The translations under genes and the position numbers were made by a program. This document shows positions 1 through 28,549 of a stretch of 64,000 nt of DNA, one piece after another. Below the pieces are notes generated by a model that was not told where the DNA came from, ran no database searches, and worked only from the letters and a program-made list of their open reading frames with translations. Positions within the stretch are counted from its first letter, which is position 1; every line of letters begins with the position of its first letter. Origin of the DNA: an uncultured Oscillospiraceae bacterium (GTDB lineage Bacteria; Bacillota; Clostridia; Oscillospirales; Oscillospiraceae). The stretch lies in assembly GCA_934573935.1 (NCBI GenBank), contig CAKTMO010000007.1:6676-70675 (forward strand), read 5' to 3'.

Positions 1-1010
1 AGCGGGATGAGTTTGCCCAGGTCACCGGCAGCATGCAGGAGGGCCTGGTGCTGCTGAACGAGAAAAGCGAGATCCTCAGCATCAATCCGGCGGCATGCAC
101 CCTGTTTCAGACGGACGCCGCCTGCGTGGGGCAGGATTTCCTGACCATCGAGCGGGACGGACAGGTGAGCCGCGCCTTGCATCAGGCCATGGCGGAGGGC
201 CACAGTGAGATCCACACCTGCCGCGAGGGGCGGGAGTATCAGATGGATATCAGCCGTATCCAGTCCAACGGCTCCGTCACCGGCGCGGTGGTGGTGGCCT
301 TTGACGTGACGGAGCAGGCTCTGGCCCAGCGCAACCGCCGCGAGTTCACCGCCAACGTGTCCCATGAGCTGAAGACCCCGCTGCAATCCATCATGGGCAG
401 CGCGGAGCTGCTGCAGAACGGCCTGGTGAAGCCGGAGGATCAGGCGGCCTTTGTGGCCCGCATCCACGACGAGGCGGCCCGCCTGGTGACGCTGATCGAG
501 GATATCATCCGCCTGTCCCAGCTGGACGAGGGTGTGTCTCTGCCGGCCGAAAGCGTGGCGCTGCTGCCGCTGGCCCAGGAGACTGTCCGTGGCCTCCACG
601 ATGCGGCGGAGGCCAAAAACGTGACCATGACCGTCACCGGCGAGGACATCACCGTGCAGGCGGCCCGCCGCCTGCTGTCGGAGGTGCTGTACAACCTTTG
701 CGACAACGCCATCAAATACAATGTCACCGGCGGCAGCGTTACGGTGGAGGTAAGCCGCTGCGGCGACAGCGCCATGCTGACCGTGGCCGATACCGGCATC
801 GGCATTCCGCCGGAGCACCAGAGCCGCGTGTTCGAGCGGTTCTACCGTGTGGACAAGAGCCACTCCCGGCAGAGCGGCGGCACCGGACTGGGCCTGTCCA
901 TCGTCAAGCACGCCGTCAGCGATCTGGGCGGCGGGATCCATCTGGAGAGTACGCCGGGGCAGGGGACGGCGATCCGCGTGACCGTGCCTCTTGCGCCGCC
1001 TGCCAGATAA
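1..1010 (+). CDS. PhoR-type sensor histidine kinase, 5'-truncated by window edge
   Basis: C-terminal part of a two-component sensor kinase; the frame is open from base 3, so the start, the membrane sensor and any HAMP domain lie outside the window. In order one sees a PAS-like segment (about the first 100 residues), the HisKA helix with the phospho-acceptor in NVSHELKTPLQS, and the HATPase_c N box (NLCDNAIKYN), G1 box (DTGIGIP), F box (FERFYRVDK) and G2 box (GGTGLGLSIVKH). This is the PhoR/WalK layout, usually phosphate- or envelope-responsive. Its response regulator would be expected upstream, outside the window. A strong hairpin terminator follows at once. Confidence 0.9.
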   Translation, partial: RDEFAQVTGSMQEGLVLLNEKSEILSINPAACTLFQTDAACVGQDFLTIERDGQVSRALHQAMAEGHSEIHTCREGREYQMDISRIQSNGSVTGAVVVAFDVTEQALAQRNRREFTANVSHELKTPLQSIMGSAELLQNGLVKPEDQAAFVARIHDEAARLVTLIEDIIRLSQLDEGVSLPAESVALLPLAQETVRGLHDAAEAKNVTMTVTGEDITVQAARRLLSEVLYNLCDNAIKYNVTGGSVTVEVSRCGDSAMLTVADTGIGIPPEHQSRVFERFYRVDKSHSRQSGGTGLGLSIVKHAVSDLGGGIHLESTPGQGTAIRVTVPLAPPAR

Positions 1011-1016
1011 AAACGC

Positions 1017-1052
1017 AAAAAAATGACTTCCCCAAAGGGAAGTCATTTTTTT
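1017..1052. terminator. Bidirectional terminator between histidine kinase and rpsU
   Basis: Perfect 11-bp inverted repeat (arm AATGACTTCCC) with a CAAA loop, A-tract before and T-tract after, so it can terminate both converging genes. Confidence 0.9.
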
Positions 1053-1059
1053 GCGTTCA

Positions 1060-1245
1060 TTAATAGTAGCGCTTGTTGCGGTTCTTGCGGGCAGCCTCGG
1101 ACTTCTTGCGGCGCTTGACGCTGGGGCTTTCATAGCACTCTCTGCGACGCACCTCGGCAACGATACCGGCCTTAGCGCAGCTTCTCTTGAAGCGCTTCAG
1201 GGCGCTATCCAGAGATTCGCCTTCCTTGACATGAATTTCGGACAT
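1060..1245 (-). CDS. rpsU: 30S ribosomal protein S21
   Basis: 61-residue basic protein of the small ribosomal subunit, involved in initiation. It begins [19 protein letters not shown] and has the family's [22 protein letters not shown] core and a Lys/Arg-rich tail; length is normal for S21. It stands alone as a single-gene unit, with its own near-perfect promoter about 80 bases upstream and a shared terminator 8 bases past the stop. Confidence 0.97.
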
Positions 1246-1326
1246 CTATTTTTCCCTCCCTCCGATGCACCCGGCTCGATCCAGGGCGCTCTTTAAGAGT
1301 CATTCAGACATGACTTAACGAATGAT

Positions 1327-1355
1327 ATTATACTGACTCAGGGGTATCTTGTCAA
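1327..1355 (-). promoter_or_regulatory. Consensus sigma-A promoter of rpsU
   Basis: On the minus strand: -35 TTGACA (1355-1350), exactly 17-nt spacer, -10 TATAAT (1332-1327). Both hexamers match consensus completely, as fits a ribosomal protein gene. Confidence 0.9.
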
Positions 1356-1677
1356 GATATTTTTCACAAATTCCCATAAAAGGTCGAAAAGGAGAGAACG
1401 CAGAACCGAAACGCAGACCCGCCGTAAGACCTTGCGGCGGGAAAATGTGTCGCAGTGAGGGACGGTGAATAATTGTCAATATTTCGTTGTAAAAAATGAA
1501 TAAATATTCCTAATACGCAATTTCATTCAAATATATGTGAATGGAAATTTAGCCTAAAAAAATTTTGAAAATGCAAAATATTGTTAGATATACTTACAAA
1601 TTCATAGTCAAACTCGCCTAAAAACGTTAATAAATTTTAGTAATTTGGAGAAAAATATAAAATATTACATAATTTGA
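1356..1677. other. AT-rich non-coding stretch upstream of the ABC operon
   Basis: No credible gene between the rpsU promoter and the operon promoter. It holds one GC-rich hairpin (arms CCCGCCG/CGGCGGG, 1418-1441) of unknown role, a near-perfect inverted repeat at 1519-1549 (arms AATTTCATTCA / TGAATGGAAATT) that could be an operator, and otherwise strongly AT-biased sequence. The composition break with rpsU suggests the left edge of an acquired segment. Confidence 0.6.
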
Positions 1678-1706
1678 TTGACAGATAACTTTTTGTAGTG
1701 TATTTT
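1678..1706 (+). promoter_or_regulatory. Putative promoter of the ABC/catabolic operon
   Basis: TTGACA at 1678-1683, 17-nt spacer, TATTTT at 1701-1706 (4 of 6 to consensus). It would give a leader of roughly 90 nt before the first permease gene. The weak -10 fits a regulated promoter. Confidence 0.6.
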
Positions 1707-1803
1707 TATTTATAACAGATTTAAAAATGCACAGGGCATTTTAGACAGTACAGAAAAACAGCGATAGCAGCATACGAAAAGATTTGCCAGGGAGGATACG
1801 GAA

Positions 1804-2814
1804 ATGCTCAAATACATAGTGAAGCGTTTACTGCTGGGGTGTTTGGTGTTATTTGGTGTAATTACCATCACTTTCATCTTATGCCGCGTTGTTCCTTCCG
1901 ACCCGGTTTCCAAGGTGGTCGGAACACGCGCCACACCGGAACAGCGAGAGCAAGCTCGCATTGAAATGGGACTGGATAAGCCGCTGACGACGCAGTATGT
2001 TCTATATTTGAGTGACCTGCTGCACGGTAACCTGGGTACGTCGCTGCGTACAAAACAGCCTGTTACCAATGAGTTGAGAGAGTATATTCCCTCTACGGTT
2101 GAACTTGTGCTGATGGCCATGATCATTGCTGTTGCGATTGGTATTCCGCTGGGCATCAATTCTGCCAAGAAAAAGGATCAGCTGCTGGATCATTTTTGCC
2201 GGTTCTTTTCCGTGGGCGCTGTTTCGCTGCCGACCTTTTGGACGGCGCTGTTTCTGCAGTTGATATTTTACCGACTGCTGAATTGGCTTCCGCTGGGCGG
2301 ACAGATCGACGTCATGCTGATGCTGACACAGGATGTGCCGCGGAGGACAGGCTTTATGCTGCTGGATTGTATTCTTGCCGGTAACGGCGTCATGCTGTGG
2401 GATGTTTTTAAGCATATGATCCTTCCCGCCGTAACCATCTCGCTGTACCCCATGGGGCTTGTGTCCAAGATGACAAGAGCCTCGCTGGTGGAAATTTTGG
2501 GAGAAGAGTATATCAAATCAGCGCGCTCCTATGGATTGAAAGAAAGTCTGGTTCTTTGGAAATATGCATTAAAGAATACGTTAGGAACTACCGTGACGGT
2601 TGTTGCGACCTGTATCGGCTACACGCTGATAAACACCTTCTTGGTGGAAGCTATTTTTAGTTGGCCGGGCTTGGGAACTTATGTCTCCAATTCTGTTATG
2701 AATATGGATACACCGGCCATTATGGGCGCCACTTTGTTTTCCGCCGTGGTATACGTGATCTTGAACCTGATTGCGGATCTGATTATTGCCACGGATCCGC
2801 GGGTTCGGGCTTGA
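1804..2814 (+). CDS. Peptide-type ABC transporter permease (DppB/GsiC family)
   Basis: 336-residue inner-membrane subunit of a peptide/opine/nickel-type ABC importer. It starts with the usual DppB layout: N-terminal helix MLKYIVKRLLLG followed by PSDPV, a first periplasmic loop, then five further hydrophobic segments. The cytoplasmic EAA-type coupling loop (EEYIKSARSYGLKES) docks on the ATPases. An RBS (GGGAGG) lies 10 bases before the ATG. It is the first gene of the operon and pairs with the permease 48 bases downstream. The substrate cannot be read from the permease; the neighbouring hydrolases favour a peptide or N-acylated amino acid. Confidence 0.93.
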   Translation: MLKYIVKRLLLGCLVLFGVITITFILCRVVPSDPVSKVVGTRATPEQREQARIEMGLDKPLTTQYVLYLSDLLHGNLGTSLRTKQPVTNELREYIPSTVELVLMAMIIAVAIGIPLGINSAKKKDQLLDHFCRFFSVGAVSLPTFWTALFLQLIFYRLLNWLPLGGQIDVMLMLTQDVPRRTGFMLLDCILAGNGVMLWDVFKHMILPAVTISLYPMGLVSKMTRASLVEILGEEYIKSARSYGLKESLVLWKYALKNTLGTTVTVVATCIGYTLINTFLVEAIFSWPGLGTYVSNSVMNMDTPAIMGATLFSAVVYVILNLIADLIIATDPRVRA

Positions 2815-2862
2815 TCGGCCTCCCGGATGCATGAATGAATCACTCAACAGCAGGAGGACTTT

Positions 2863-3753
2863 ATGAGAAACAGCAGATTATGGAAAACAATGAAACCAAA
2901 ATTGAAAGAAGCCTGGAACTCTTACCGGCTTCTTAAGCGTAACACCTTGACACGGATCGCGCTGTACCTTGTTTTTGCGCTTGTCCTGATTGCCATTTTC
3001 GCACCGGTCGTCCTGCCGTCTGTGCAGGAGATCAATGAGCAGGCCGATGCCGCATTTACGCTGCAGGCACCGAGCTCACAGCATTTGTTTGGCACAGATG
3101 AATTGGGCAGGGATATCTTCCTTCGTACCCTGATCGGCACCCGGGTCTCATTGGGAACAGCCGTGATCTGTGTTGCCATTTCTGTAGTGGTCGGGGTGAT
3201 ATTAGGTGCAACAGCCGGCTATTTTGGCGGAGTGGTAGATGACATTATCATGCGCATCACAGATATGTTCCTCAGTTTCCCGTCACTGCTGCTGGCCATG
3301 GCTGTAGCGGCCATTCTTGGGCCCAGTCTGCAAAATGCCATTATTGCGATCGTGATTTCCTGGTGGCCATCTTATACACGAATTGTACGGGGACAGGCAG
3401 TTTCTGTAAAAGAGCGGCAATTCGTAAAGGCCGCCAAGGCGATCGGAACACCCAACTTCAAAATTATCACAAGCCATGTGATCCCAAACTGTCTGGCACC
3501 TGTTATTGTTCAAGTTTCCATGGATTTGGGAAACGTCATTATGACGCTGGCCTCGTTGAGCTTTTTGGGCCTTGGGGCTCAGGCGCCGACACCGGAATGG
3601 GGACTCATGGTCAGTACAAGCCGCAATTACTTTTTGAACGCATGGTGGTACAGCATTTTTCCCGGCCTGGCTATCTTTGTCACCGTCCTGGCATTTAATC
3701 TGGTAGGAGATGGTCTGCGTGAGATCCTTGACCCAAAGACCAAGAAGAAGTAA
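2863..3753 (+). CDS. Peptide-type ABC transporter permease (DppC/GsiD family)
   Basis: 296-residue second permease. N-terminal cytoplasmic stretch, first helix (RIALYLVFALVLIAIFAPVV), then the DppC signature HLFGTDELGRDIFLRTLIGTR and five more helices, with the EAA coupling loop around RQFVKAAKAIGTPNFKI. It ends in a short Lys-rich tail (TKKK). The AGGAGG RBS of the next gene begins directly after its stop. It forms the heterodimeric channel with the preceding permease. Confidence 0.93.
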   Translation: MRNSRLWKTMKPKLKEAWNSYRLLKRNTLTRIALYLVFALVLIAIFAPVVLPSVQEINEQADAAFTLQAPSSQHLFGTDELGRDIFLRTLIGTRVSLGTAVICVAISVVVGVILGATAGYFGGVVDDIIMRITDMFLSFPSLLLAMAVAAILGPSLQNAIIAIVISWWPSYTRIVRGQAVSVKERQFVKAAKAIGTPNFKIITSHVIPNCLAPVIVQVSMDLGNVIMTLASLSFLGLGAQAPTPEWGLMVSTSRNYFLNAWWYSIFPGLAIFVTVLAFNLVGDGLREILDPKTKKK

Positions 3754-3765
3754 GGAGGAGCCGCA

Positions 3766-4731
3766 ATGGGAACGCCATATTTGCAAATCGAGAATTTGAC
3801 GATCAACTACAATACGTCGGGGCAAAAAAAGCATGTTCTGTCGATTGAGAATTTGTGCATTGAAAAAGGACAAGCACTTGGCCTCATTGGTGAAAGCGGC
3901 ACAGGAAAAACGGTTCTGGCGCAAGCGATTCTCCAGCTTTTGGAAGTTCCGCCCGGAGAATATGCCAGCGGAAGAATCCTCCTTGATGGCGAGGATGTTC
4001 TGCAGAAGACCGACAAGGAGATGGCAACGGAAATCCGTGGAAAAAAGGTCGCCATGATCTTTCAGGATCCCATGTCAACGCTGAATCCGGTCTATTCCAT
4101 AGGACAGCAGATGATCAACGTCATCATGCAGAATCAGGGACTTAGTAAGCACGAGGCAAGGAATAAGGCGCTGGAAATGTTAGACTTGGTTAAGCTGCCT
4201 GATGTGCAAAGCGTGATGGATAAGTACCCGCACGAGCTTAGCGGCGGACAGCGGCAGCGTGTCATTATCGCTCTGGCATTAAGCTGCGGTTCCGAGTTTA
4301 TCATTGCCGATGAGCCGACCCGCAATCTGGACGTTACCATTCAGGCGGGTATTTTGAAACTGCTGAAAGAACTGCAGGCAAGACTGAACGTCACGCTGCT
4401 GTTCATTGCGAATAACCCGGGCTTGATTTACGCCACCTGCGACCATGTGGCGATTTTACAAAACGGCTATGTTGTCGAGCAGGGTACGACACACGAGGTG
4501 CTGAAGGAAGGCAAACATCCCTATACGGACGTTTTGCTCAATGCGATCCCCAAAGATAAGTCCTTTCGCCCGCGAACGATTGATATTTTGGAGGGAGAAA
4601 ATCCTTCGCCCTGTCATTACTATCCGTGGTGCGCTCTGCGCTGCGAGGCCTGTATGCAGGAGCCGCGTATGATCCATGTGGGCGGAGAGCATTATGTGCG
4701 CTGTAATCTGGCAAAGGAGGCTGGACGCTGA
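3766..4731 (+). CDS. Peptide-type ABC transporter ATPase (DppD family) with degenerate H-loop
   Basis: 321-residue nucleotide-binding subunit. Walker A GESGTGKT (about residues 44-51), Q-loop FQDPMSTLNP, intact signature LSGGQRQR, Walker B IIADEPT with the catalytic Glu. The C-terminal oligopeptide/dipeptide ABC extension has the Cys-rich CHYYPWCALRCEACM segment typical of the family. Two features are unusual: the D-loop reads RNLD instead of SALD, and the switch (H-loop) region reads IANNPGL where THDLG is expected, so the switch His is Asn. Its ATP site is therefore probably weak or non-hydrolytic. The stop overlaps the next start (TGATG). Confidence 0.92.
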   Translation: MGTPYLQIENLTINYNTSGQKKHVLSIENLCIEKGQALGLIGESGTGKTVLAQAILQLLEVPPGEYASGRILLDGEDVLQKTDKEMATEIRGKKVAMIFQDPMSTLNPVYSIGQQMINVIMQNQGLSKHEARNKALEMLDLVKLPDVQSVMDKYPHELSGGQRQRVIIALALSCGSEFIIADEPTRNLDVTIQAGILKLLKELQARLNVTLLFIANNPGLIYATCDHVAILQNGYVVEQGTTHEVLKEGKHPYTDVLLNAIPKDKSFRPRTIDILEGENPSPCHYYPWCALRCEACMQEPRMIHVGGEHYVRCNLAKEAGR

Positions 4732-5720
4732 TGGACGGAAATATTCTTGAGCTCAAGCACTTAAAGAAGTACTTTCCCGTAAAGAGAAAGGGCTTTTGGG
4801 GTGAGCAGCGCTTTGTCAAAGCGGTGGACGATGTGTCGTTCAATATTCGCCGCGGCGAGGTGGTTGGCATCGTAGGGGAATCCGGCTGCGGAAAGTCTAC
4901 GCTGGTCAATACGGTCTTGAAGCTGACAAATCCCACAGATGGACAGGTTCTCTTTGATGGAAAGGATCTGTACGCACTGAACAAAAGGGAACTGCAGGCG
5001 GAGCGCAAGAACATTCAGATCGTGTTTCAGGATCCTTACTGGTCGTTGAACCCACGTATGCTGGTAAAGGACATTGTGGGAGAGCCTCTGGCGGTGCAGA
5101 CCAAAATGAACACGCAAGAGATTTTGGCGCAGGTGCAGAAAACGCTGCAAATGGTGGGCCTGCCGCCGGAGGGCGCCTTCTTGTATCCCCATGAATTCAG
5201 TAATGGCGAGCGCCAACGCATTGCCATCGCCAGAGCGTTGGTTCTGCAGCCGAAGCTGGTCGTTCTGGATGAACCCACTTCCTCCATCGACGTGGTTTCG
5301 CAGGTACAGATCTTAGATCTGTTAGGCAGCTTGAAGGAGCAGCTGCAGTTGACTTATATCCTGATCTCCCATGATTTGAGTGTTGTTCACTACATGGCAG
5401 ATAAGATCGCGGTTATGTATTTGGGTCGGCTGGTGGAATACGGCGATTCCGATGAGGTATTCCATCACCCGCAGCATCCGTACACCAGGGCACTGTTTGC
5501 GGCGATCCCCAGCATGGATACGGATAATTTGGATGATATCAGTACACTGGATGATAATTTGCCCAGCGCCATCAACGTGCCGGATGGCTGCTGCTTCCAT
5601 ACCAGATGTCCCTATGCCACCGAACAGTGTGCACAGCAGCTTCCCAAGCTGCGAAGATGCGCAAACGGCGTGATCGCTGCCTGCCACTTGCTGGCAGCGC
5701 ATGATTCTCAGGAGGTATGA
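4731..5720 (+). CDS. Peptide-type ABC transporter ATPase (DppF family)
   Basis: 329-residue partner ATPase. Walker A GESGCGKST, Q-loop FQDPYWSLNP, Walker B LVVLDEPT, canonical H-loop ISHDLSVVHYMAD, and the C-terminal oligopeptide extension ending with RCPYATEQCAQQLP. Its signature motif is FSNGERQR rather than LSGGQRQR. In a heterodimer this altered signature faces the ATP site of the preceding DppD-like subunit, which lacks its switch His, while the intact DppD signature completes the canonical DppF site. It is translationally coupled to the upstream ATPase by a one-base overlap. Confidence 0.92.
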   Translation: MDGNILELKHLKKYFPVKRKGFWGEQRFVKAVDDVSFNIRRGEVVGIVGESGCGKSTLVNTVLKLTNPTDGQVLFDGKDLYALNKRELQAERKNIQIVFQDPYWSLNPRMLVKDIVGEPLAVQTKMNTQEILAQVQKTLQMVGLPPEGAFLYPHEFSNGERQRIAIARALVLQPKLVVLDEPTSSIDVVSQVQILDLLGSLKEQLQLTYILISHDLSVVHYMADKIAVMYLGRLVEYGDSDEVFHHPQHPYTRALFAAIPSMDTDNLDDISTLDDNLPSAINVPDGCCFHTRCPYATEQCAQQLPKLRRCANGVIAACHLLAAHDSQEV

Positions 5721-5724
5721 TACC

Positions 5725-6801
5725 ATGACACATGAAGAAAGACTGACCTATTTTGCTGACGCGATGGTCAATAGAACCTTTCAGCTGAAACCGGGCGAAA
5801 CGTTGGTTATTACATCGGACTACGGTTCCCGCCACGATTTGAACGAGGCTATTTCCAAGGCTGCCTATCAGGCGGGTGCCAAATGTATGATCGTTATTAC
5901 CGCCCCTGCCCCCAGCCATGGGAAAATCGCAGATACCGTTATTGCCTATGAGCCTTTTACAGCGCTGATGAAGGAGGCGGACTGCTGGTTGGATACCGGC
6001 ACGATGGGGTGGCTGTATTCCGATGCTTTTGAGACTGTGCTGGCAACAAATCCGGATATCCGCTATCTGCTGATCTCCAATCTCGATCTTGACCTGCTGT
6101 ACAAGACCTTTGTGTATAACTATTGTGATGCACTGGTGGAGCTGTGCGCACAGATCAAGCGGATGGTAGACGGCGCTTCCCGTATTCGCGTGGGCTGTGC
6201 ACTTGGTACGGATCTGGAGTTTGAGATCGAGCACCGGCATGTGATCACTGTGGATATCGGAAACGCCTCTGTTCCCGGATTTTTCACGTTGCCGGCCCTG
6301 TTTAACATTGTTCCGCGGTTTGGTTCCTGTAACGGGAAATTAGTAATGAGCGCGGTATACTGTGACCCGTGGGGGCTGCTGGACAAGCCACTGACAATTT
6401 TGATCAAGGACGGAAAGATCATAGGAACAGAATGTGAGAACCAGGCTGACGCCGACTCTGTGATGACATGGTTGGCACAGTGGAACGAGGAGAATATTTA
6501 CAAGGTTGCGCATACCAATCTGGGGCTGCTGGCCGGTGTGAAGGGACTGTGTGGTGAGGGGATCCTGGACGAACGTTCCTGGGGCACGCTGAACTGGGGA
6601 TTCGGCCACGTAACACCCTCGGAAGCGCCGCCCAACGGCAATATTTCGAAATCCCACTTCGACGGCATGGTATTGAATGGTTCCATTTGGATCGATGAGG
6701 TTCCCATTATGGAGAATGGCCGCTTCGTTCATAGCGCATTGGCTCCGCTGGCAGATGCGGTGATTCGCCATTATGAGGATTCTTATAAAACGCAACAATG
6801 A
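5725..6801 (+). CDS. M29 aminopeptidase / NicX-like metalloenzyme, copy 1
   Basis: 358 residues from the ATG at 5725, chosen because an AGGAGG sits at 5710-5715; the upstream in-frame ATG at 5701 lies inside the preceding gene. The fold family includes M29 (AmpS/aminopeptidase T) peptidases and the 2,5-dihydroxypyridine dioxygenase NicX. The N-terminal half has a conserved PAPSHGKIADTV stretch. The C-terminal half has likely metal ligands in LNWGFGH (His) and SHFDG (His-x-Asp). It is a tandem paralogue of the next gene, sharing long blocks such as LDTGTMGWLYSDAFE. Probable hydrolase of the imported substrate; the exact reaction is unknown. Confidence 0.8.
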   Translation: MTHEERLTYFADAMVNRTFQLKPGETLVITSDYGSRHDLNEAISKAAYQAGAKCMIVITAPAPSHGKIADTVIAYEPFTALMKEADCWLDTGTMGWLYSDAFETVLATNPDIRYLLISNLDLDLLYKTFVYNYCDALVELCAQIKRMVDGASRIRVGCALGTDLEFEIEHRHVITVDIGNASVPGFFTLPALFNIVPRFGSCNGKLVMSAVYCDPWGLLDKPLTILIKDGKIIGTECENQADADSVMTWLAQWNEENIYKVAHTNLGLLAGVKGLCGEGILDERSWGTLNWGFGHVTPSEAPPNGNISKSHFDGMVLNGSIWIDEVPIMENGRFVHSALAPLADAVIRHYEDSYKTQQ

Positions 6802-6820
6802 AAAGACAGGAGGTACGATC

Positions 6821-7876
6821 ATGACCAGAGAGCAGAAAATTGAACAAATCGCAAAATTTATCGTGCACACAACCTTCAAGCTGAAGGAAGGTGATACGCT
6901 GGTTATCACCTCGGATTACGGTTCCCATCACGACATTAACGAAGCGGTTTCCCGCGAGACCTACGCAGCAGGTGCAAAGTGCCTGATCATTAAAACCGCC
7001 CCCGCCCCCAGCCACGGGAAGATCGCCGACACCGTAGTTGCCTATAAGCCCTTTACGGCCATGATGAAGGAAGCCAACTATTGGCTGGACACCGGCACCA
7101 TGGGTTGGCTGTATTCTGACGCATTTGAAGATTCCTTTGTCAATAACCCCAATCTGCATTATATGCTCATCTCCATTATGGACGTGGACGAGCTGATGGA
7201 TATGCTGCTGGGCTGTTATTCTCCCGAAATGCAGGCTATGACCGACTATATGGCGGAAATGATCCTCAAGGCAAAGGGATTGCGTGTGACCAATCATGAC
7301 GGCACGGATTTCACCTTTGAGATCGACACCAATAACCGCAACAACGCCCAGATCGGTCTGGCGGATAAGCCCGGCTTCTATACGCCGCCCGCGATGTACA
7401 ATATGATCCCCAAATATGGCACGCTGCAGGGAAAGGCGGTCGTGCGCTGCATTTATGCCGATCCCTGGGGAATGGCTGCGCCCACTACCGTCAATTTCAA
7501 GGACGGCAAGATCGACACCATTACCAGTGAAGATCCCACGGTAGCGAAGAAGTTCACAGCGTGGCTGGAAAGCAAAAACGAAGAGAACATCTACAAGATT
7601 TCCCACATTAACTTTGGCCTGCTGCCGAAGCTGCATGAGTTCTCCGATCATGGCATCAAAAATGAACGTATGTGGGGCGGTATTAACCTGGGCTTCGGTC
7701 ATACCAGTCCTGTGGACATGCGTCCCAATGGTCAGACCTCCTGCGATCATCTGGATATCATTGCAGACAAGTGCGATGTCTGGGTGGATGACACAAAGGT
7801 GATGGAGAACGGGGAATTCGTTGGCCCCTTCAAGAGCTATGCCGATGCCGTCCTGAAGGTAAATGGTATGCTGTAA
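6821..7876 (+). CDS. M29 aminopeptidase / NicX-like metalloenzyme, copy 2
   Basis: 351 residues from the ATG at 6821, preceded by AGGAGG at 6808-6813; the open frame further upstream overlaps copy 1 and is not used. It shares with copy 1 the TLVITSDYGS.HD N-terminal motif, the PAPSHGKIADTV block, INLGFGH (His) and a C-terminal His-x-Asp reading CDHLDI instead of SHFDG. Loss of the Gly after His-x-Asp, and scattered substitutions, show the two copies have diverged and may have different specificities or form a hetero-oligomer. It lies between the transporter ATPases and the substrate-binding lipoprotein. Confidence 0.8.
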   Translation: MTREQKIEQIAKFIVHTTFKLKEGDTLVITSDYGSHHDINEAVSRETYAAGAKCLIIKTAPAPSHGKIADTVVAYKPFTAMMKEANYWLDTGTMGWLYSDAFEDSFVNNPNLHYMLISIMDVDELMDMLLGCYSPEMQAMTDYMAEMILKAKGLRVTNHDGTDFTFEIDTNNRNNAQIGLADKPGFYTPPAMYNMIPKYGTLQGKAVVRCIYADPWGMAAPTTVNFKDGKIDTITSEDPTVAKKFTAWLESKNEENIYKISHINFGLLPKLHEFSDHGIKNERMWGGINLGFGHTSPVDMRPNGQTSCDHLDIIADKCDVWVDDTKVMENGEFVGPFKSYADAVLKVNGML

Positions 7877-7935
7877 CGCAGGCAAACTTTCCGATTATCC
7901 TGCAACAAATAATGAACAAATGAGAGGATTTTGTT

Positions 7936-9510
7936 ATGAAAAAGAGAGTTGTTTCTTTGCTCCTGGCCGTGGTCATGATGTTTGCTCTGGCCGGCTGCGG
8001 CAACACCGGCAACACCCCCAGTAACAACAGCGCCTCGGATACACACACATTCTACTATGCAACATATGTTGATCCCATTCTCCAGTGGGATCCCAGCGGC
8101 TCTGTGTCGAATGAAGTTATGGTCTTTAATGAGGTTTACGAGACCCTTCTTCGTATCGACCCTGCCACTGATGAATTTACCCCTTGTCTGGCTACTTCCT
8201 ATGAAGCGAACGAAGACGGCACGGTCTGGACGTTTAAGCTGCGCGAGGGCGTTACGTTTACGGATGGCAGCGCTTTTAACGCCGATGTTGTAAAATTCTG
8301 CCTGGAACGGACGATCTCCCTTAACGGCGCCAACGCTTATCTTTGGAACAGCCTGGACTATGTTGAGGTGATCGACGACTACACGGTTGCGCTGCACTTG
8401 AAGTATGCCGCTCCCGCCGACATCATCTGCGCCGGCTCCTATGGCTCGTTCATGTATTCCAAAGAAGCCGTAGAGAATGATCCTGATTTCTTCAATAAGG
8501 GTCAGGTTTGCGGCAGTGGCCCCTATACGTTGGCACAATACCAGGCGGGTGACTATGTGGTTCTGTCCCGTAACGAAAACTATTGGGGCGGCTGGAGTGA
8601 CAATCAGTATGACTCTGTGATCTTCAAGTATGCGGCGGAATCCTCCTCCCGTCGGCAGATGATTGAGTCCAACGAGGTCAGTGCCGTGAATATGCTGCCT
8701 GCGGAGGATGTGGCCGCGCTGTCCAACTCCGCCAATTGCAAGGTGGTGGAGGCCCCGACGCTGAAAAATATGATCGCAAACTATAACACGGCCTCCGGTC
8801 CCTGCAGTGATGTCCGTGTACGTCAGGCACTTGCCTACGCGCTGCCCTACGAGCAGGTTGCAAACGTGGCCTGCGGCGGGCATGCCACGATTGGCTGCGG
8901 CTATATTCCTACAGGCCTGTTTGGACATACGGATGATCTGAATACCAATGTGTACGATCTGGAAAAGGCACGCGAGCTGCTGACGGAGGCGGGTTATGCC
9001 GACGGTATGAATCTGGTGCTGACCTATATGAGTGGAGATGAAATGCAGCGCAAGACTGCTGAGCTTTGGGCGACCGAGTTGGCCAAGCTGAATGTAACGC
9101 TGTCCATCAATGCCATGACATGGGATGGTATGTGGGATAAAGCGCGCAGCACGACGCTGGAGGATCGTCAGGATATCCTGGTTGAGTACTGGATGATCGA
9201 CATTGCATCTCCCTCCGGTTGGATGGCTGCTTATACCACGGAAGCCGAACCCATCATGAACCTGAGTTATTACAGTGATCCTGAGGTGGACGCCCTCATC
9301 GCGGAAGCGGCCTCCCTGTGCGCAACTGACCGCGATGCGGCGACTGAGGTGTACTACACCATTCAGGAGAAGCTGGCGGCAGCCTGCCCCGCAACCTCTG
9401 TTGTGGATGTCAAGGATGTTTGGGTTTTGTCTGGTACAGTTGACTCCATTGATCTGAACGCCGCTTATACCATGGTGGCGCGTGTTTACGATGCCAGATG
9501 GGCGCAGTGA
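7936..9510 (+). CDS. Peptide-type ABC substrate-binding lipoprotein (SBP family 5)
   Basis: 524-residue extracellular receptor for the importer encoded upstream. Lipoprotein signal peptide with lipobox LAGC (Cys21), then the family-5 (DppA/OppA) layout: YVDPILQWDPSG and NEVYETLLRIDP near the N terminus, the WTFKLREGVTFTDG motif, and the C-terminal lobe with YDLEKARELLTEAGY. An RBS (GAGAGG) precedes the ATG. Its position after the two hydrolase genes, not next to the permeases, shows that transport and catabolism are built as one unit. A strong hairpin follows it. Confidence 0.93.
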   Translation: MKKRVVSLLLAVVMMFALAGCGNTGNTPSNNSASDTHTFYYATYVDPILQWDPSGSVSNEVMVFNEVYETLLRIDPATDEFTPCLATSYEANEDGTVWTFKLREGVTFTDGSAFNADVVKFCLERTISLNGANAYLWNSLDYVEVIDDYTVALHLKYAAPADIICAGSYGSFMYSKEAVENDPDFFNKGQVCGSGPYTLAQYQAGDYVVLSRNENYWGGWSDNQYDSVIFKYAAESSSRRQMIESNEVSAVNMLPAEDVAALSNSANCKVVEAPTLKNMIANYNTASGPCSDVRVRQALAYALPYEQVANVACGGHATIGCGYIPTGLFGHTDDLNTNVYDLEKARELLTEAGYADGMNLVLTYMSGDEMQRKTAELWATELAKLNVTLSINAMTWDGMWDKARSTTLEDRQDILVEYWMIDIASPSGWMAAYTTEAEPIMNLSYYSDPEVDALIAEAASLCATDRDAATEVYYTIQEKLAAACPATSVVDVKDVWVLSGTVDSIDLNAAYTMVARVYDARWAQ

Positions 9511-9549
9511 CCATAAGCAAGCGGTAAACGTTATAGACTCACAATACGT

Positions 9550-9590
9550 GGGTATCCCCGCATCACCTGCCGGGTGCTGCGGGGATACCC
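9550..9590 (+). other. Intra-operon hairpin after the binding-protein gene
   Basis: Long stem (arms GGGTATCCCCGCA and TGCGGGGATACCC, extended by CACC/GGGTG with a small bulge) and no T-tract, 40 bases after the SBP stop. Such hairpins usually protect the upstream mRNA end, letting the receptor be made in excess over downstream enzymes; read-through to the following genes is expected. Confidence 0.7.
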
Positions 9591-9617
9591 GGCAATCCAC
9601 CAAAAGGAAGTGATTCC

Positions 9618-9980
9618 GTGCATCTTAACGACGCAAAATATCACACGCATGCCTTGCGGATCAGTGCAAAGAAGACCGCCCAGGATAATCCGTATTATTA
9701 TTCGAATGAGCGCCTTGCCAATTGCCTGCATGTGATGGAACGACTTCGCACAGACAGCTGGTTAAAGCCCAAAGCGCTGGAGCTGCGATTGACGTCCGTT
9801 TTAGGGTTGGAGGGTGGTTATCGCGCTGCCTGTGGGGAAGATGCCTGCCGGATTGACATAAGCGTGTATGTATCGCCCCCCGCCTCCGGCGCTGAGCTGG
9901 AGCAGAAGCTTTGCCCGTTGGGTAAGGCGCATGGTGTATGCATCAATGTTCTTGACAGGGGGAGCTCACATGTGGACTGA
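9618..9980 (+). CDS. Small protein of unknown function (120 aa), GTG start
   Basis: A real gene by its signals: GTG start with a strong Shine-Dalgarno (AAGGAAGTGAT, 9604-9614), codirectional, and an 11-base overlap with the next gene. I do not recognise the family. The second half (RIDISVYVSPPASGAELEQKL) weakly resembles the end of an M20 dimerisation domain, so it could be a remnant or stand-alone lid domain; this is a guess. It has no signal peptide or membrane segment, three Cys residues, and a charged N terminus (KKTAQDNPYYYSNERL). Confidence 0.65.
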   Translation: MHLNDAKYHTHALRISAKKTAQDNPYYYSNERLANCLHVMERLRTDSWLKPKALELRLTSVLGLEGGYRAACGEDACRIDISVYVSPPASGAELEQKLCPLGKAHGVCINVLDRGSSHVD

Positions 9981-11229
9981 ACGAATTCAGCAGGAATATC
10001 TGGAGATCTTCCGTAGCCTTTTGCGGTTTGATACCACAAATCCTCCCGGGTATGAAAAGGATATTGCCCAATACATCCACCGTAAACTGACGGACGCGGG
10101 GATCGAAAGTCACATTGTTGGAAAGACGCCAAACCGCGCCAATGTGTTGGCGAGGATCTCCGGAAGTGATCCCTCTGCCAAGCCGCTTATGCTGATTTCG
10201 CATATTGATGTTGTAGAAGCGGATGACTGGAGTGTTCCCGCGTTTTCGGCCTATGAAAAGGACGGCATCCTCTATGGCCGGGGTACAATTGATACCAAAC
10301 AGTTGACTGCCGGACAGCTGATGGCCATGCTGCTGATGGCGCGGTCAGGCCGTCGGCCGCACAGGGATGTCATATTGATCGCGGCAGCCGATGAGGAAAA
10401 CGGCAGCAATTATGGAATGGCCTATCTCACCGAAAATTATCCCGAATGGTTTCCAGAGGCTTATGTATGGAGTGAGGGCGGCGGCTTTATCGTACATAAT
10501 GGAGAGAAGCAGTACCGTTTATGTGCGGGAAGTGAAAAATCAACGCTTTGTGTTCGCATCTGCATTGACCCAGGCGCCGAAGGAGCGGGATTGGAAGGGC
10601 AAACGCTGTATTATGTGGCCCGCGTATTGGAAAAGCTGACCTCTTATACGCCGAGCACTACTTTGACCAGTGCCACAGAACGCTTTTGCAAGATACTGCC
10701 GCCGGAAGAGATCAGGGATCCGACGATTCGCAATTTATGGGAATACAGCACAAAATGCTCCATGCAGCTGAATGAATTTCACCTCTGTGCGGAAACCATC
10801 GGCTGTGGAAAGCCTGTGGAACTGTTCGTCAGCTTCAAGCTGCTGCCGACTACCCCACGGCGCGAGATCGAAGACCTGTTTGCCGCGCTGCTATGCGGCG
10901 AACCGGCGACATGGGAAGTTACCGACTTTCAAGAGGGGTATGAGAGCAGTTTTGACAATGAATTTATTGATGTTCTCGATTCCGTATCAAAACGGCTGGA
11001 TCCGGAAACACAGCTGCTGCCTATGATGATCCTGGGTAGTACGGATGGCCGGTTTATCGGCGGAAATGTCTATGGCTATACGCCGCTGCTTCGAGATATG
11101 CCGTTTTCGACTGTGCTTCAACTGGTGCACGGGAAAGACGAACACATAACGTTGGATTCCGCCGTTTACAACGGGCGCGTTATTTGTGAAGCGGCGGCAG
11201 AATTTGCGTATAACAAAACAGGAGGGTAG
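9970..11229 (+). CDS. M20 family metallopeptidase / N-acyl-amino-acid deacylase
   Basis: 419 residues from the ATG at 9970 (GGGGGAG just upstream); the frame is open further 5' but that part lies inside the preceding gene. Binuclear zinc enzyme of the ArgE/DapE/ACY1 type. Visible ligands are SHIDVV (His78, Asp80), GRGTIDTK (bridging Asp108), DEENG (general base Glu142 and Glu143), and a late GSTDGRFIG plus VHGKDEH, the last His being the usual final ligand. GRGTID in place of GRGAxDMK is slightly atypical. Expected to cleave a dipeptide or an N-acyl amino acid delivered by the importer. Confidence 0.88.
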   Translation: MWTERIQQEYLEIFRSLLRFDTTNPPGYEKDIAQYIHRKLTDAGIESHIVGKTPNRANVLARISGSDPSAKPLMLISHIDVVEADDWSVPAFSAYEKDGILYGRGTIDTKQLTAGQLMAMLLMARSGRRPHRDVILIAAADEENGSNYGMAYLTENYPEWFPEAYVWSEGGGFIVHNGEKQYRLCAGSEKSTLCVRICIDPGAEGAGLEGQTLYYVARVLEKLTSYTPSTTLTSATERFCKILPPEEIRDPTIRNLWEYSTKCSMQLNEFHLCAETIGCGKPVELFVSFKLLPTTPRREIEDLFAALLCGEPATWEVTDFQEGYESSFDNEFIDVLDSVSKRLDPETQLLPMMILGSTDGRFIGGNVYGYTPLLRDMPFSTVLQLVHGKDEHITLDSAVYNGRVICEAAAEFAYNKTGG

Positions 11230-11232
11230 AGT

Positions 11233-12414
11233 ATGGGATATTTTGATAACGCTGCCATCAATTTTGATGTGCTGAAAAAACGCGCGTTTAACTATCGGTG
11301 GGCCGAAGTTCCTGACGGCGTCATTCCCTTGACCGCCGCTGATCCGGATTTTCCCGCACATCCCGCCGTTCGTGAAGCGATTATCAACTACGCCAAGGAG
11401 GGCTATTTTTCCTATACGCCGCACCGCGGTATGCCCGACTTCATGGCAAGTATTTCCAAGGCGCTGAAGCTTCGGAAAAATGAGGATGTTCCGCCGGAAC
11501 TGATCCTGCCGATCGACAGCGCCGCGCGAGGGATGTATGTGATCGCACAGACCGTTTTGCAGCCCGACGACGAAATGATCGTTTTCGATCCGGTGGACTT
11601 TTTGTTTCGCCAGTCGTGCTTGTCGGCCGGTGCTACACCCGTGCTGTTCCCAGCGCGCCTGGACGGGGATCACATTGATCTGAGTGAATTGGAGCGCTAT
11701 ATTACACCGAAGACCAAGATGATTGGCCTTTGTAATCCGCATAATCCGCTGGGCGCCCTGTATACCCGTGAGGATCTGGAACACATCCTTTCATTGGCCG
11801 AAAAATATGATCTGTATATCATGAACGATGAGATTTGGTCGGATATTGTGTATCCGCCGAAGAAGTTCATCAGTATTCTGGAACTGGGCACCCAGCGCAA
11901 CCGTAAAACACTGTCTGTTTTCGGCTGGTCGAAGAGCTTCTGCGTGGCGGGTCTGCGTATCGGCTGCGTATATGGGCAAGACAAAGAACTGTTTGATAAG
12001 GTAATCGACAAATCAGCCGTTATGACTACGGCCGGCGGCATTTCATCCCTATCTCAAATTGCCGGAAAAACCTGTGTTGATCAGTGCTATGGCTGGCTTG
12101 ATGAGTTCCTTCTGCATCTGAAAGGCAATCGGGATTATGCGGTGGAGCGGATCAACGCCATGCCGGGTCTGCGGGCGCGGAAGGCAGACGCGACCTATTT
12201 GCTGTTTTTTGATATCACACAGACGGGAAAAGACAGCCAGACATTTGTTGACGAGCTGCTTCAGCAGCAGAAGCTGGCTTTGACACCTGGCAGCGCCAAG
12301 TTCTTTGGGCCGGGTGCGGAAGGACGGGTTCGTTTGTGTTATGCCACCAGCCGCGAGGTATTAAAAGAAGGGCTGGATCGTCTGGAGGCATATACAAGAT
12401 CCATCAGCAAATAA
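11233..12414 (+). CDS. PLP-dependent aminotransferase / C-S lyase-like enzyme (fold type I)
   Basis: 393-residue class I/II PLP enzyme. Landmarks are AADPDFPAHPAV at the N terminus, NPHNPLG (the Asn that contacts the cofactor), NDEIWSDIVY (Asp199 binds the pyridine N) and the Schiff-base lysine in SVFGWSKSF (Lys234). NPHNP and DEIxSD resemble MalY/PatB cystathionine beta-lyases, but the beta-lyase WVADMDF and DEIH motifs are altered to TAADPDF and DEIW, so transamination is equally possible. It starts 4 bases after the M20 stop, within the overlapping GGAGGG region, so it is translated with it. It acts on the amino acid released by the peptidases. Confidence 0.85.
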   Translation: MGYFDNAAINFDVLKKRAFNYRWAEVPDGVIPLTAADPDFPAHPAVREAIINYAKEGYFSYTPHRGMPDFMASISKALKLRKNEDVPPELILPIDSAARGMYVIAQTVLQPDDEMIVFDPVDFLFRQSCLSAGATPVLFPARLDGDHIDLSELERYITPKTKMIGLCNPHNPLGALYTREDLEHILSLAEKYDLYIMNDEIWSDIVYPPKKFISILELGTQRNRKTLSVFGWSKSFCVAGLRIGCVYGQDKELFDKVIDKSAVMTTAGGISSLSQIAGKTCVDQCYGWLDEFLLHLKGNRDYAVERINAMPGLRARKADATYLLFFDITQTGKDSQTFVDELLQQQKLALTPGSAKFFGPGAEGRVRLCYATSREVLKEGLDRLEAYTRSISK

Positions 12415-12459
12415 TCTGCTACACTCTACCATAAAAGATTAGAACAGGAGTTGCGTATA

Positions 12460-12840
12460 ATGAAAAAACTGATTTCAACAACACAGGCTCCCGCCGCGAT
12501 CGGCCCCTACTCCCAGGGGGTAGAGACCCAGGGAACGATGATATTTGTTTCCGGACAGCTTCCGATTGATCCCAATACAGGCGCTTTCGCAGGGGATGAT
12601 ATTGTCACCCAGTGCCACCAGTCCATTCGCAATGTCAAAGCCATTCTCGAAACGGCCGGCACCGATCTGGAACACGTTGCCAAGACCACGGTGTTTATCA
12701 AAAACATGAACGACTTTTCCGCCTTGAATGAGGTATACGCGCAGTATTTTTCCAATGGTCTTCCTGCACGCTCCGCTGTTGAAGTCGCCTGCCTTCCCAA
12801 GGGTGCGCTGGTGGAGATCGAGGCTATCGCTATCAAGTAA
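12460..12840 (+). CDS. RidA family reactive imine/enamine deaminase
   Basis: 126 residues from the ATG at 12460 (AGGAG at 12446-12450, ideal spacing; an upstream in-frame TTG is rejected). It contains the RidA hallmarks GPYSQ, VSGQLP, the catalytic Arg104 in LPARSAVEVACLP, and the final LVEIEAIA. RidA hydrolyses 2-aminoacrylate and related imines produced by PLP enzymes, so its place directly after the PLP gene implies that enzyme releases an enamine/imine, or an amino acid is deaminated nearby. It is the last catabolic gene of the locus. Confidence 0.93.
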   Translation: MKKLISTTQAPAAIGPYSQGVETQGTMIFVSGQLPIDPNTGAFAGDDIVTQCHQSIRNVKAILETAGTDLEHVAKTTVFIKNMNDFSALNEVYAQYFSNGLPARSAVEVACLPKGALVEIEAIAIK

Positions 12841-12914
12841 GTACCTGTGATTTGCTGAAAGACGCTACTTCACACGTAATCAGGATAATTTGCAGCACAG
12901 GGGTAGAACTCTTC

Positions 12915-12943
12915 TTGCTTTTATAATACTTTCGTTATATAAT
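12915..12943 (+). promoter_or_regulatory. Promoter of the YheO-type regulator
   Basis: TTGCTT (12915-12920), 17-nt spacer, TATAAT (12938-12943). It lies in an AT-rich gap after ridA and gives the regulator its own transcript. Confidence 0.7.
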
Positions 12944-13013
12944 AACCATTTAGAGAGCTTTACGACAAAGCAATATGATGGTTTCATTTCAATATAAAGC
13001 GGAGGAATAAAGA

Positions 13014-13709
13014 ATGGCGATGGCAGAATGGACGACGAAATTAACCGATGTTGACCGGGTGATTTTATCATCCTATAAAAGCTTTTCCGAAGGTCTTTCC
13101 GACTATCTGGGCGAAGGATACGAGATCGCGCTGCATAGTCTGGAAAATTTGGATCGCTCTGTGATAAAAATTATTAATGGTTATCATACCGGACGAAGTG
13201 AAGGTGCGCCCATTACGGATTTGGCTTTGACAATGCTGAGCCGAATCAAAAGCAATCAAATCGAGCCCTATATTTCTTACAACACGACCAATAGCAAGGG
13301 AGAGCCCATGCGCTCCACCACGATCGCCGTTATGGGAGAACATGGCCGGATTATTGGCCTGCTCTGTATCAATTTCTATCTGAACACACCGCTGACCAGC
13401 GTCATCAAGAATTTGACTACGCCGGACAGCAGCGAAACGGAGTCTTTGTCAGAGCGCTTTGCGGATAATATCGGCGACATGCTGCATAATACGGTGCAGG
13501 ATGTGCATACACTGGTTATGTCTGATCCGTCGATCCCCTGTGGCCGGAAAAAACGTGCCATTGTGAAGGAACTCCACAGCCGCGGTGTTTTTAATCTGAA
13601 GGATTCGGTCGTCCGCACCGCAGAACTGCTGCAGGTCTCACGGAACACGATATACATGTATATCCGCGAAATTGACGAGAAGAATGCGGAGTCCAAGGAA
13701 CGTGGTTAA
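13014..13709 (+). CDS. YheO/DauR-type transcriptional regulator (PAS-like + HTH)
   Basis: 231 residues: an N-terminal YheO-like PAS domain (about 15-125, LGEGYEIALHSLENLDRSVIKIINGYHTGR, here cited by its ends LGEGYEI and IINGYHTGR) and a C-terminal HTH (about 180-225: RKKRAIVKELHSRGVF, then AELLQVSRNTIYMYIREI). DauR of this family represses D-arginine catabolism, and other members sit beside amino-acid catabolic genes with RidA. It is transcribed in the same direction as the operon from its own promoter, and is the likely substrate-responsive switch of the 1.8-12.8 kb genes. Signals allow a start at 13014 or 13020. Confidence 0.88.
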   Translation: MAMAEWTTKLTDVDRVILSSYKSFSEGLSDYLGEGYEIALHSLENLDRSVIKIINGYHTGRSEGAPITDLALTMLSRIKSNQIEPYISYNTTNSKGEPMRSTTIAVMGEHGRIIGLLCINFYLNTPLTSVIKNLTTPDSSETESLSERFADNIGDMLHNTVQDVHTLVMSDPSIPCGRKKRAIVKELHSRGVFNLKDSVVRTAELLQVSRNTIYMYIREIDEKNAESKERG

Positions 13710-13790
13710 TGCTCTTGTCAGGTTTCAAGAATACAAGATTTCTCTGCGCTATTTGTTCTGTATTCTTGATCGCACAATACCCTACTGCAC

Positions 13791-13841
13791 AGGGAACCGG
13801 AACGCCTTTTGAAAAGGTGTTCCGGTTCCCTGTGTTTTCTT
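13791..13841. terminator. Strong terminator ending the catabolic locus
   Basis: 17-bp stem AGGGAACCGGAACGCCTTTT / AAGGTGTTCCGGTTCCCT (two mispairs) with a GAAA loop region, followed by TGTGTTTTCT. It sits between the regulator and a convergent gene, so it probably serves both. Confidence 0.85.
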
Positions 13842-13860
13842 CAGTTATGAATCTACCGGA

Positions 13861-14346
13861 TCAATCAAAGCCGAACAGGCCCATGATGCGGTGATAGAGG
13901 TCCTTGTGCTCCTCGTACCAGTCCTTGCGCTCCTGCAGCAGACGCTCCGCGTCGGCGTATTCCTCCAGCGCCTGGCTGGCCTCCAGATAGCCGCGGGTCA
14001 GAACGCGCATGCGCTTGCTCATGTACTGCATGATGGACATGATCTTGGCGGGACGCTCCTGAAAATAGTGGCCGAAGTTTTCGTGGGTGATGACGATGCA
14101 GGCCGTTTTCTCCAGCGCCACGGCGGTGGCGTTCTGGGGGCGGCTCTCCAAAAAGCCCACGATGCCGAAAAAGCCGTCGGCCTCCACCTCGTTCAGCAGC
14201 CGCTGGGTGGGCTTGCGGTAGTCCACATACAGGGCCACCTGGCCCCACAGCACATCAAAGATGGCGGATACATAGTCGCCTTGCTGATAGATGATCTCGC
14301 CTTTTTTGAAAATTCTTTCTCCTGATTCCGGATGGCTCGTTGTCAT
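13861..14346 (-). CDS. Cyclic-nucleotide-binding (cNMP) domain protein without HTH
   Basis: 161 residues. The N-terminal 115 form a Crp-like beta-roll: RIFKKGEIIYQQGDYVSAIFDVLWGQVALYVD, cited by its parts KKGEIIYQQGD and GQVALYVD, then DGFFGIVGFLESRPQNATAVALE. The phosphate-binding cassette FGEXXL..RxA is degenerate (FFGIVGFLESRPQNATA), so nucleotide binding is uncertain. The C-terminal 45 residues are a charged helix (ALEEYADAERLLQERKDWYEE), not a DNA-binding domain. It may be a scaffold or sensor rather than a transcription factor. It is followed upstream on the same strand by a membrane protein gene. Confidence 0.8.
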   Translation of the reverse strand: MTTSHPESGERIFKKGEIIYQQGDYVSAIFDVLWGQVALYVDYRKPTQRLLNEVEADGFFGIVGFLESRPQNATAVALEKTACIVITHENFGHYFQERPAKIMSIMQYMSKRMRVLTRGYLEASQALEEYADAERLLQERKDWYEEHKDLYHRIMGLFGFD

Positions 14347-14391
14347 GTTCTTCGCCGCCTTTCTATCATAGAATATAAAATGAGAAACGTT

Positions 14392-14811
14392 TTAGAACAT
14401 CTTGTCCACGTAGGCATTCAGCTTTTTCGCGTCATAGCTGTCCTTATAGGTGGTTTTGAAGCGCTGCACCGTCAGAGAGTTGAACTGAGTCACCTTGCGA
14501 TACTTCATGATGCCGGCCACCAGACCAAACAGGGCGCAGATGGGGGCGTAGGGCATCATTCTCACGCAGGTATACACCAGCGCGGCCACCACCACGATCG
14601 AAATGACCACACCGGCGATCTGCTTCTTCGGCTGGATGAGCTTTACCTCCTCGGCGCTGATGATACCCTCGTCGATCATGGTCTGGGCAAAGCGCTTCTG
14701 CACGCCGAACTGGGATACCGCCGACAGCACGATGGGCGCCACCGCGAAAAACGAAAACAGCGTAATGACAGCGTTCCACAGGAACACGCCAAATCCTTCC
14801 ATATTACCCAT
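14392..14811 (-). CDS. Hypothetical membrane protein (139 aa)
   Basis: No recognisable family. Two or three membrane segments: residues about 8-30 (VFLWNAVITLFSFFAVAPIVL) and 66-85 (IAGVVISIVVVAALVYTCV), possibly continuing through PYAPICALFGLVAGIM. The loop between carries RFAQTMIDEGIISAEEVKLIQP, and the C terminus is basic and soluble. It starts MGNMEG with AAGGAG nearby. It is codirectional with the cNMP gene 45 bases downstream, so the two probably share a transcript. Confidence 0.7.
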   Translation of the reverse strand: MGNMEGFGVFLWNAVITLFSFFAVAPIVLSAVSQFGVQKRFAQTMIDEGIISAEEVKLIQPKKQIAGVVISIVVVAALVYTCVRMMPYAPICALFGLVAGIMKYRKVTQFNSLTVQRFKTTYKDSYDAKKLNAYVDKMF

Positions 14812-14840
14812 AATAACTACTCCTTTTCAGAATGACATAA

Positions 14841-15938: not shown

Positions 15939-16024
15939 GGTTTCACCTCGTTTTGTCAGTAAAAATCAGTATAACACATATTCCCGCATAACGCCACCCT
16001 ATTTTTTCTTTCTTGGGAAAACTC

Positions 16025-28496: not shown

Positions 28497-28549
28497 ATGG
28501 TTTTCCCTCCTGTAAAAAAGTTCCAATCACCATCACTGCCGCCAAATGC

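Follow-up and report, generated by a model that had tools for sequence, protein, structure and literature searches.

The placement of RidA genes near enzymes that depend on pyridoxal phosphate (PLP) is well established, and several of these enzymes form 2-aminoacrylate (PMC4433059). Genes of the YheO type are described as always lying next to, or one gene away from, a RidA-type gene, and in Campylobacter jejuni a RidA-type gene is repressed by a YheO-type protein (PMC4519771). NicX is a 2,5-dihydroxypyridine 5,6-dioxygenase, which opens the pyridine ring; its iron ligands are His265, His318 and Asp320, with Ser302 as the fourth, and His105 guides the substrate (PMC7910607). In Bacillus subtilis, the yxe pathway for S-(2-succino)cysteine, an amino-acid conjugate, includes the M20-type deacylase YxeP (PMC9706529). 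These statements, like those cited below, follow the accessible part of each source. Here we describe a block of 12 genes, all on the plus strand at 1804-13709 of a stretch of 64,000 nucleotides (the window) from an uncultured Oscillospiraceae bacterium (assembly GCA_934573935.1, contig CAKTMO010000007.1, positions 6,676 to 70,675 of the forward strand). Among the listed titles and abstract openings, mostly outside subscription journals, no operon of such composition was found.

The block shares with the RidA-PLP clusters (PMC4433059) and the YheO-RidA pairs (PMC4519771) a RidA gene beside a PLP enzyme gene and a PAS_6-HTH regulator. It differs from them, as far as the accessible text of the two papers goes, in adding a peptide importer and several metal enzymes. 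The yxe system is alike in outline through its M20-type deacylase; YxeK, 2SL and the acetyltransferase were not recognised in the block, so that this is likeness, not membership (PMC9706529, accessible part).

The block appears to be built from two modules, each also seen without the other. Its gene content, base composition, co-occurrence and active-site residues were computed. The first module would comprise a peptide-type ABC importer, its receptor and two NicX-type metalloenzymes, and the second a small orphan protein, an M20 family hydrolase, a PLP enzyme, RidA and a YheO-type regulator. In the simplest account, the importer and NicX-type genes of the first module would have been joined to the enzyme set of the second.

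We give an even chance to a pathway in which an imported amide- or peptide-linked amino-acid compound is cleaved by metal enzymes and deaminated through PLP-dependent elimination and RidA. The receptor and importer would take up a small peptide-like or amide-linked amino-acid compound, and the NicX-type pair and the M20 hydrolase would open or cleave its amide bonds, freeing the amino acid. The PLP enzyme would act on this amino acid, most likely by elimination, to give a small enamine or imine such as 2-aminoacrylate. RidA would hydrolyse this product to a 2-oxo acid and ammonia, and the YheO protein would control expression. We infer the substrate class, the order of the steps, elimination over transamination and the regulation from the sequences. 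A preliminary description of this DNA had presented import, hydrolysis, the PLP step and RidA as one catabolic unit; this idea is supported, and the wording "M29 metallohydrolases" is not. RidA and YheO genes have been published as neighbours whose joint purpose is uncertain; the block connects them with a definable pathway that includes its own importer, so that one set of ligands could serve to test their role. It further shows NicX-type enzymes where no pyridine genes are recognised, and it draws attention to a small protein as a possible partner of the M20 hydrolase.

The importer and the NicX-type enzyme form a recurrent module, since they are linked in seven of the 12 genomes with NicX-type relatives. 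These genomes were 8 of 391 (E 1e-20) and 4 of 400 (E 1e-30). In the seven, the importer next to the NicX-type gene belongs to the window's subfamily (52-78% identity); the count is a lower bound, because contig ends truncate the loci in G023 and G365. The L032 contig stops at permease 1, and no receptor is visible on it. Permease 1 of the window is 61-64% identical to that of the NicX-linked importers of six genomes and 33-34% identical to those of genomes G698 and G833. Only one of the 12 genomes, Candidatus Choladousia (L001, DVHT01000086.1), places the tandem pair between an ATPase gene and the receptor gene; its order of oppC-D-F, both NicX-type genes and receptor is that of the window. 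A genome scan with one NicX-type sequence gave nothing, and a scan with the NicX-type alignment gave one locus. Gene lists of the relatives came from a longest-ORF (open reading frame) script that drops overlaps, and some genes were seen by tblastn only. In another of the 12 genomes, G681 (locus L033), the peptide importer flanked by three NicX-type genes is a different one, and M20 and nitroreductase genes are close by.

The second module was found through its enzymes. Relatives of the M20 hydrolase occurred in one of 400 genomes at E 1e-40 (G698) and in one of 110 at E 1e-30 (G833, two copies), both times clustered with a peptide-type importer, a PLP enzyme, RidA and YheO. G944, from the genus of G833, has a cluster as in G833. 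For the PLP enzyme, relatives at E 1e-90 were present in 0/99 genomes, in 2/160 (G833 and G934), in 2/2 from the genus of G833 and in 1/25 from the genus of G698; that of G833 is 95% identical to a Hungatella hathewayi protein. RidA adjoins the PLP gene in the window, G698, G833 and G944. The three clusters differ from the block in carrying M24 enzymes instead of the NicX-type pair, and in G698 and G833 the importers share only 33-47% identity with that of the window. Gene order also differs. In G698 it is RidA, PLP, M24, receptor, permeases, ATPases, a relative of the orphan, M24, M20, M24, a PNPOx-like gene, YheO and M24. In G833 it is receptor, M20, M24, M20, an N-terminal piece of M24, two permeases, M24, two ATPases, RidA, PLP and YheO. 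One M24 gene in each of G698 and G833 is prolidase-like. In our scheme, the M24 enzymes of these two genomes and the NicX-type enzymes of the window would hold the same place. The co-function expected in the preliminary description thus agrees with the neighbourhood survey: M20, PLP, RidA and YheO sit with an importer in G698, G833 and G944, and enzymes apart from the transporter, looked for as the opposite outcome, were not what these three genomes gave. Of the set it had named, an M29 pair with M20, PLP, RidA and YheO, the last four do co-occur, and in place of the pair there are M24 genes. At locus L038, the Creatinase_N domain encoded by 3743-4216 stands alone (157 aa), with M20 and permease genes on either side and no catalytic part of M24; G944 has a similar Creatinase_N match of about 115 residues.

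The features of the block are collected in Table 1. The preliminary description had counted eleven genes; its own list sums to twelve, and all those named exist on the plus strand with the tight spacing it reported. Genes for ATPases 1 and 2 (dppD/dppF) overlap by 1 nt and those for the orphan and M20 by 11 nt, and the remaining gaps are 3-107 nt, save 173 nt before the regulator gene. The regulator may have its own promoter. No words of 10 nt or more are common to the region before dppB and the regions before the regulator, orphan or receptor genes. A second long terminator-like stem, also of 20 pairs, was seen at 1012-1057 to the left of the gene for S21; the 14 terminator-like sites in 1-16000 are not above chance in total (shuffle mean 15.6). 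Starts were chosen from the sequence (NicX-type B ATG 6821, orphan GTG 9618, M20 ATG 9970, RidA ATG 12460), and the domain searches of NicX-type B and M20 began upstream of them, at 6818 and 9967. The importer is complete, as had been described: Pfam finds SBP_bac_5, two permeases and two ATPases with oligo_HPY. In the listed rows of the NCBIfam scan of three subunits (permease 1, ATPase 1 and the receptor), none reached a cut-off.

Table 1. Genes and predicted RNA structures of the block (window coordinates)
Feature	Position	Strand	Evidence or remark
Permease 1 (DppB/OppB type)	1804..2814	+	PF00528 3.8e-32, PF19300 7e-16
Permease 2 (DppC/OppC type)	2863..3753	+	PF00528 1.9e-33, PF12911 6.8e-6
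ATPase 1 (DppD/OppD type)	3766..4731	+	PF00005, PF08352
ATPase 2 (DppF/OppF type)	4731..5720	+	PF00005, PF08352; 1-nt overlap with ATPase 1
NicX-type metalloenzyme A (M29 relative)	5725..6801	+	Profile match to NicX 7cn3
NicX-type metalloenzyme B	6821..7876	+	NicX 7cn3 2.6e-6 by single sequence
Substrate-binding lipoprotein (receptor), SBP_bac_5	7936..9510	+	PF00496 6.8e-83
Stem-loop between receptor gene and orphan	9550..9590	+	18-nt arms, 94% complementary, without T-run
Orphan, 120 aa, GTG start	9618..9980	+	Possibly M20-lid-like, predicted fold
M20 family hydrolase	9970..11229	+	PF01546 2.9e-22
PLP enzyme, fold type I	11233..12414	+	PF00155 2.7e-43
RidA	12460..12840	+	TIGR00004 171 bits (cut-off 106.25); PF01042 3.4e-41
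YheO-type regulator	13014..13709	+	PF08348 PAS_6 2.4e-32, PF13309 HTH_22 9.3e-15
Terminator-like stem, right edge of block	13788..13834	+	20 pairs, T-rich tail

The NicX-type proteins A and B are 47% identical to each other. They had been called M29/NicX-like and counted among up to three metallohydrolases. The NicX part of this name is confirmed: a profile of 15 sequences, built from A, B and 13 relatives out of the 34 listed by a protein search, matches NicX 7cn3 at 9.2e-19 over positions 29-338 of 351. The M29 part is not, since the Pfam M29 matches score 21.1 and 21.8 bits, below the cut-off of 27, and are confined to residues about 4-60 (4-58 in A), some 55 profile positions. As a control, the true M29 aminopeptidase gene outside the block, at 17492-18715 (-), scores 534.4 bits over residues 3-406 of 406. 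We therefore rejected the label of M29 peptidase, and the count of up to three metallohydrolases is not supported, the pair being M29 relatives of the NicX type. Common descent with M29 is clear, because precomputed PF02073 (M29) domains are present in 7 of the 34 relatives (PF26233 in 34/34) and the same profile matches M29 PepS at 4.6e-9. By sequence, the pair is to be placed in the M29 superfamily, nearer NicX. The catalytic set of M29 is EEHYHD (PMC7023490, accessible part); by profile, the pair aligns poorly with the true M29 protein of the window (probability 15.6%), the alignment ending before the HxD part. In all 15 sequences H263, H311 and D313 are invariant and align with NicX His265, His318 and Asp320, and the replacements of Ser302 by Gly292 and His105 by Tyr98 are equally invariant (NicX registers were counted by hand). 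The reaction of the pair cannot be deduced from that of NicX; nor should peptidase activity be assumed.

The main rival of the amide pathway starts from this pair. It supposes import of a cyclic nitrogen compound resembling a hydantoin, thiohydantoin or pyridine, whose ring the pair opens without oxygen; M20 would strip off the acyl or carbamoyl remnant, leaving the freed amino acid to the PLP enzyme and RidA. A peptide-type importer is unusual for ring compounds. The closest solved relative, NicX, is an enzyme of pyridine ring opening (PMC7910607, accessible part), but it needs oxygen and differs from the pair at the two residues named above, and pyridine pathway genes were not recognised in the block. 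A gene for S-Me-THD (DUF917; PF06032/PF20906) is linked in six of the seven importer-linked genomes (L022, L023, L024, L025, L031, L032), and PucR and nitroreductase genes lie at four of the seven loci. Loci of S-Me-THD, importer and NicX-type genes are possibly a separate type of catabolic locus. Genome G518 has a Transp_cyt_pur permease gene beside its NicX-type gene and no linked importer of the window's subfamily. The S-Me-THD and PucR genes are, however, absent from the window block and from L001. We regard a cyclic substrate as unlikely.

The second rival concerns the PLP enzyme, which falls between families. It is a fold-I PLP enzyme by its match to PF00155 (aminotransferase class I/II; 149 bits, cut-off 19.7). 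Among the models listed, the archaeal aspartate aminotransferase (AspAT) model gives 197.2 bits and the PatB C-S lyase model TIGR04350 197.1 bits (cut-off 340), both below cut-off. Against solved structures, the AspAT 1o4s scores 163.3 bits, the MalY relative 4dgt 140, PatB 117.5 and MalY 93.9. 4dgt itself scores 258 bits to MalY. Since MalY scores just 36 bits to 1o4s, the enzyme lies between the AspAT and the PatB/MalY groups. Neither specific label, C-S lyase or aminotransferase, was accepted: the PatB cut-off was not reached and PatB and MalY score under 1o4s, and the archaeal AspAT model stays below its cut-off.

According to this second rival, Cys-Gly or N-acyl-Cys conjugates are imported and trimmed, and a PLP beta-lyase releases a thiol and 2-aminoacrylate, which RidA clears. 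The PatB model ties with the top model listed, the NPHNPLG and DEIWSDIVY stretches are like those of PatB (less so MalY), 4dgt comes near the aminotransferases, and RidA stands beside the PLP gene in all four clusters. The scores given above nevertheless place AspAT 1o4s ahead of PatB and MalY; furthermore, the active lysine is followed by GLRIG, unlike the PatB/MalY form, and a thiol-handling gene is not obvious in the block. Cysteine S-conjugates appear a quite improbable substrate. General peptide scavenging, with broad dipeptide import, several unspecific peptidases, an aminotransferase and a housekeeping RidA, is slightly less probable still: the importer type, M20 in the window, the M24 genes of G698 and G833, the named relatives of the PLP enzyme (aminotransferases and one conserved hypothetical protein) and the precomputed M29 domains of the NicX-type relatives fit it, but the sporadic distribution (1/400, 1/110, 1/25) and the dedicated regulator suit a specialised substrate better, and the window pair is below the M29 cut-off.

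The preferred amide pathway agrees with the last two genes of the block, where the preliminary assignments proved right: RidA passes the cut-off of the Rid family model, and the regulator has PAS_6 followed by HTH_22, as in the YheO/DauR type. The window and G833 fit the published YheO-RidA adjacency. One study reports no significant activity of RidA on iminoarginine (PMC5619798, accessible part), which favours a small enamine at this locus.

We also assessed whether the orphan could belong to the M20 hydrolase. The M20 match to PF01546 is 80 bits (cut-off 24.6), and H79, D81, D109, E143, E144 and H388 (the numbering begins one residue upstream of the ATG) are invariant in six aligned proteins; we take them to be metal-binding. 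No match to the lid domain PF07687 was found among the window proteins searched by Pfam. A GxxHA-type motif, which we take to be the M20 lid motif, is present in three of the six proteins (one G833 copy, L031 and L030); the window and G698 proteins have Gly at this position and the other G833 copy has Lys, the alignment there being weak. Apparently, the canonical lid histidine is absent from the window M20. The orphan has four listed relatives at E 1e-3, and in G698 a distant relative is one gene away from the M20 gene. Its predicted fold is beta-alpha-beta-beta-alpha-beta (pLDDT 73). Among the best 50 of 684 Foldseek rows, 38 were M20-type by title, with YxeP (1ysj) among the matches, and 12 were 6-hydroxymethyl-7,8-dihydropterin pyrophosphokinase (HPPK) or other; none of the 684 reached E 1e-3. 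A structural aligner gave about 12 M20-type proteins among its best 50 rows. The modelled fold thus resembles an M20 lid, not specifically, as HPPK and other ferredoxin-like folds match too. Profile comparisons with M20 lids gave weak matches (E 0.01 with probability 4%, 0.057 in another register, and 0.24); BLAST against the lids gave nothing, and neither did Pfam up to E 10. That the orphan is a detached lid subunit which completes the histidine-less M20, giving a two-gene hydrolase joined to oxygen-independent NicX-fold hydrolases, is a speculative and rather improbable idea.

Several observations weigh against the amide pathway encoded by one coherent set of genes. The L001 contig, 7.8 kb long and ending 1 kb beyond the receptor gene, carries no gene of module 2. 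The stretch examined in G833 is without orphan and NicX-type genes, and the PLP relative in G934 has none of the other genes of the set within the 20 kb examined. RidA and YheO of G698 are about 15 kb apart, at opposite ends of the cluster. For the PLP enzyme, no cut-off was reached among the models listed, so no family is assigned, and its best solved relatives carry the name of aspartate aminotransferase. M20 matches at less than 60% identity occur in 341 plasmid records, seven of them over 80% of the length. The S-Me-THD, PucR and nitroreductase neighbours of the NicX-type genes hint at cyclic nitrogen compounds.

The block was probably acquired from elsewhere, because the GC content at third codon positions (GC3) of its 12 genes, 0.56-0.67 (mean 0.60), lies under the 0.77-0.89 (mean 0.84) of 23 other, hand-picked window genes. 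G+C falls from about 0.65 to about 0.51 at the left edge; right of 13709 it climbs only gradually, reaching 0.64 by about 15000. As to the host, the first 300 residues of the window's LeuRS share at most 73% identity with their counterparts in 391 genomes from the class of the Candidatus Choladousia genome, which gives no finer placement. In 13 of the 41 longest ORFs outside the block (at least 100 aa), GC3 is also below 0.70. Many of these look antisense or spurious, and those at 26601-27149 and 60554-62149 may be real genes. Because some may be genes, the block is not alone in having low GC3. The ORF at 60554-62149 (-) has 531 aa, a signal-peptide-like start and a GC3 of 0.61, and may be a further gene of low GC3 beyond the block. 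No direct or inverted repeats of at least 11 nt are common to 1001-1803 and 13710-14500, and thus no attachment repeats were found. Flank searches in eight genomes, made for an empty-site comparison, gave no usable synteny: the left flank matched in 7/8 at 32-55% identity, and the right flank in 0/8 at E 1e-40. An Alanine-racemase-N type gene lies right of the block at 14841-15938 (-), with matches in 0/8 genomes at E 1e-40. A plasmid origin was rejected, as the plasmid search gave no near match of the block. The scan of viral contigs gave no relatives of the orphan or NicX-type genes.

Two other features of the window lie outside the block. At 23689-28652 (-), genes for a large flavin/iron-sulphur oxidoreductase and an amidohydrolase have an ssnA RNA (RF03031) upstream, which looks like what we take to be an ssnA/ygfK-type cluster. 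A TPP riboswitch (RF00059, 66.5 bits) lies at 30362-30473 (-).

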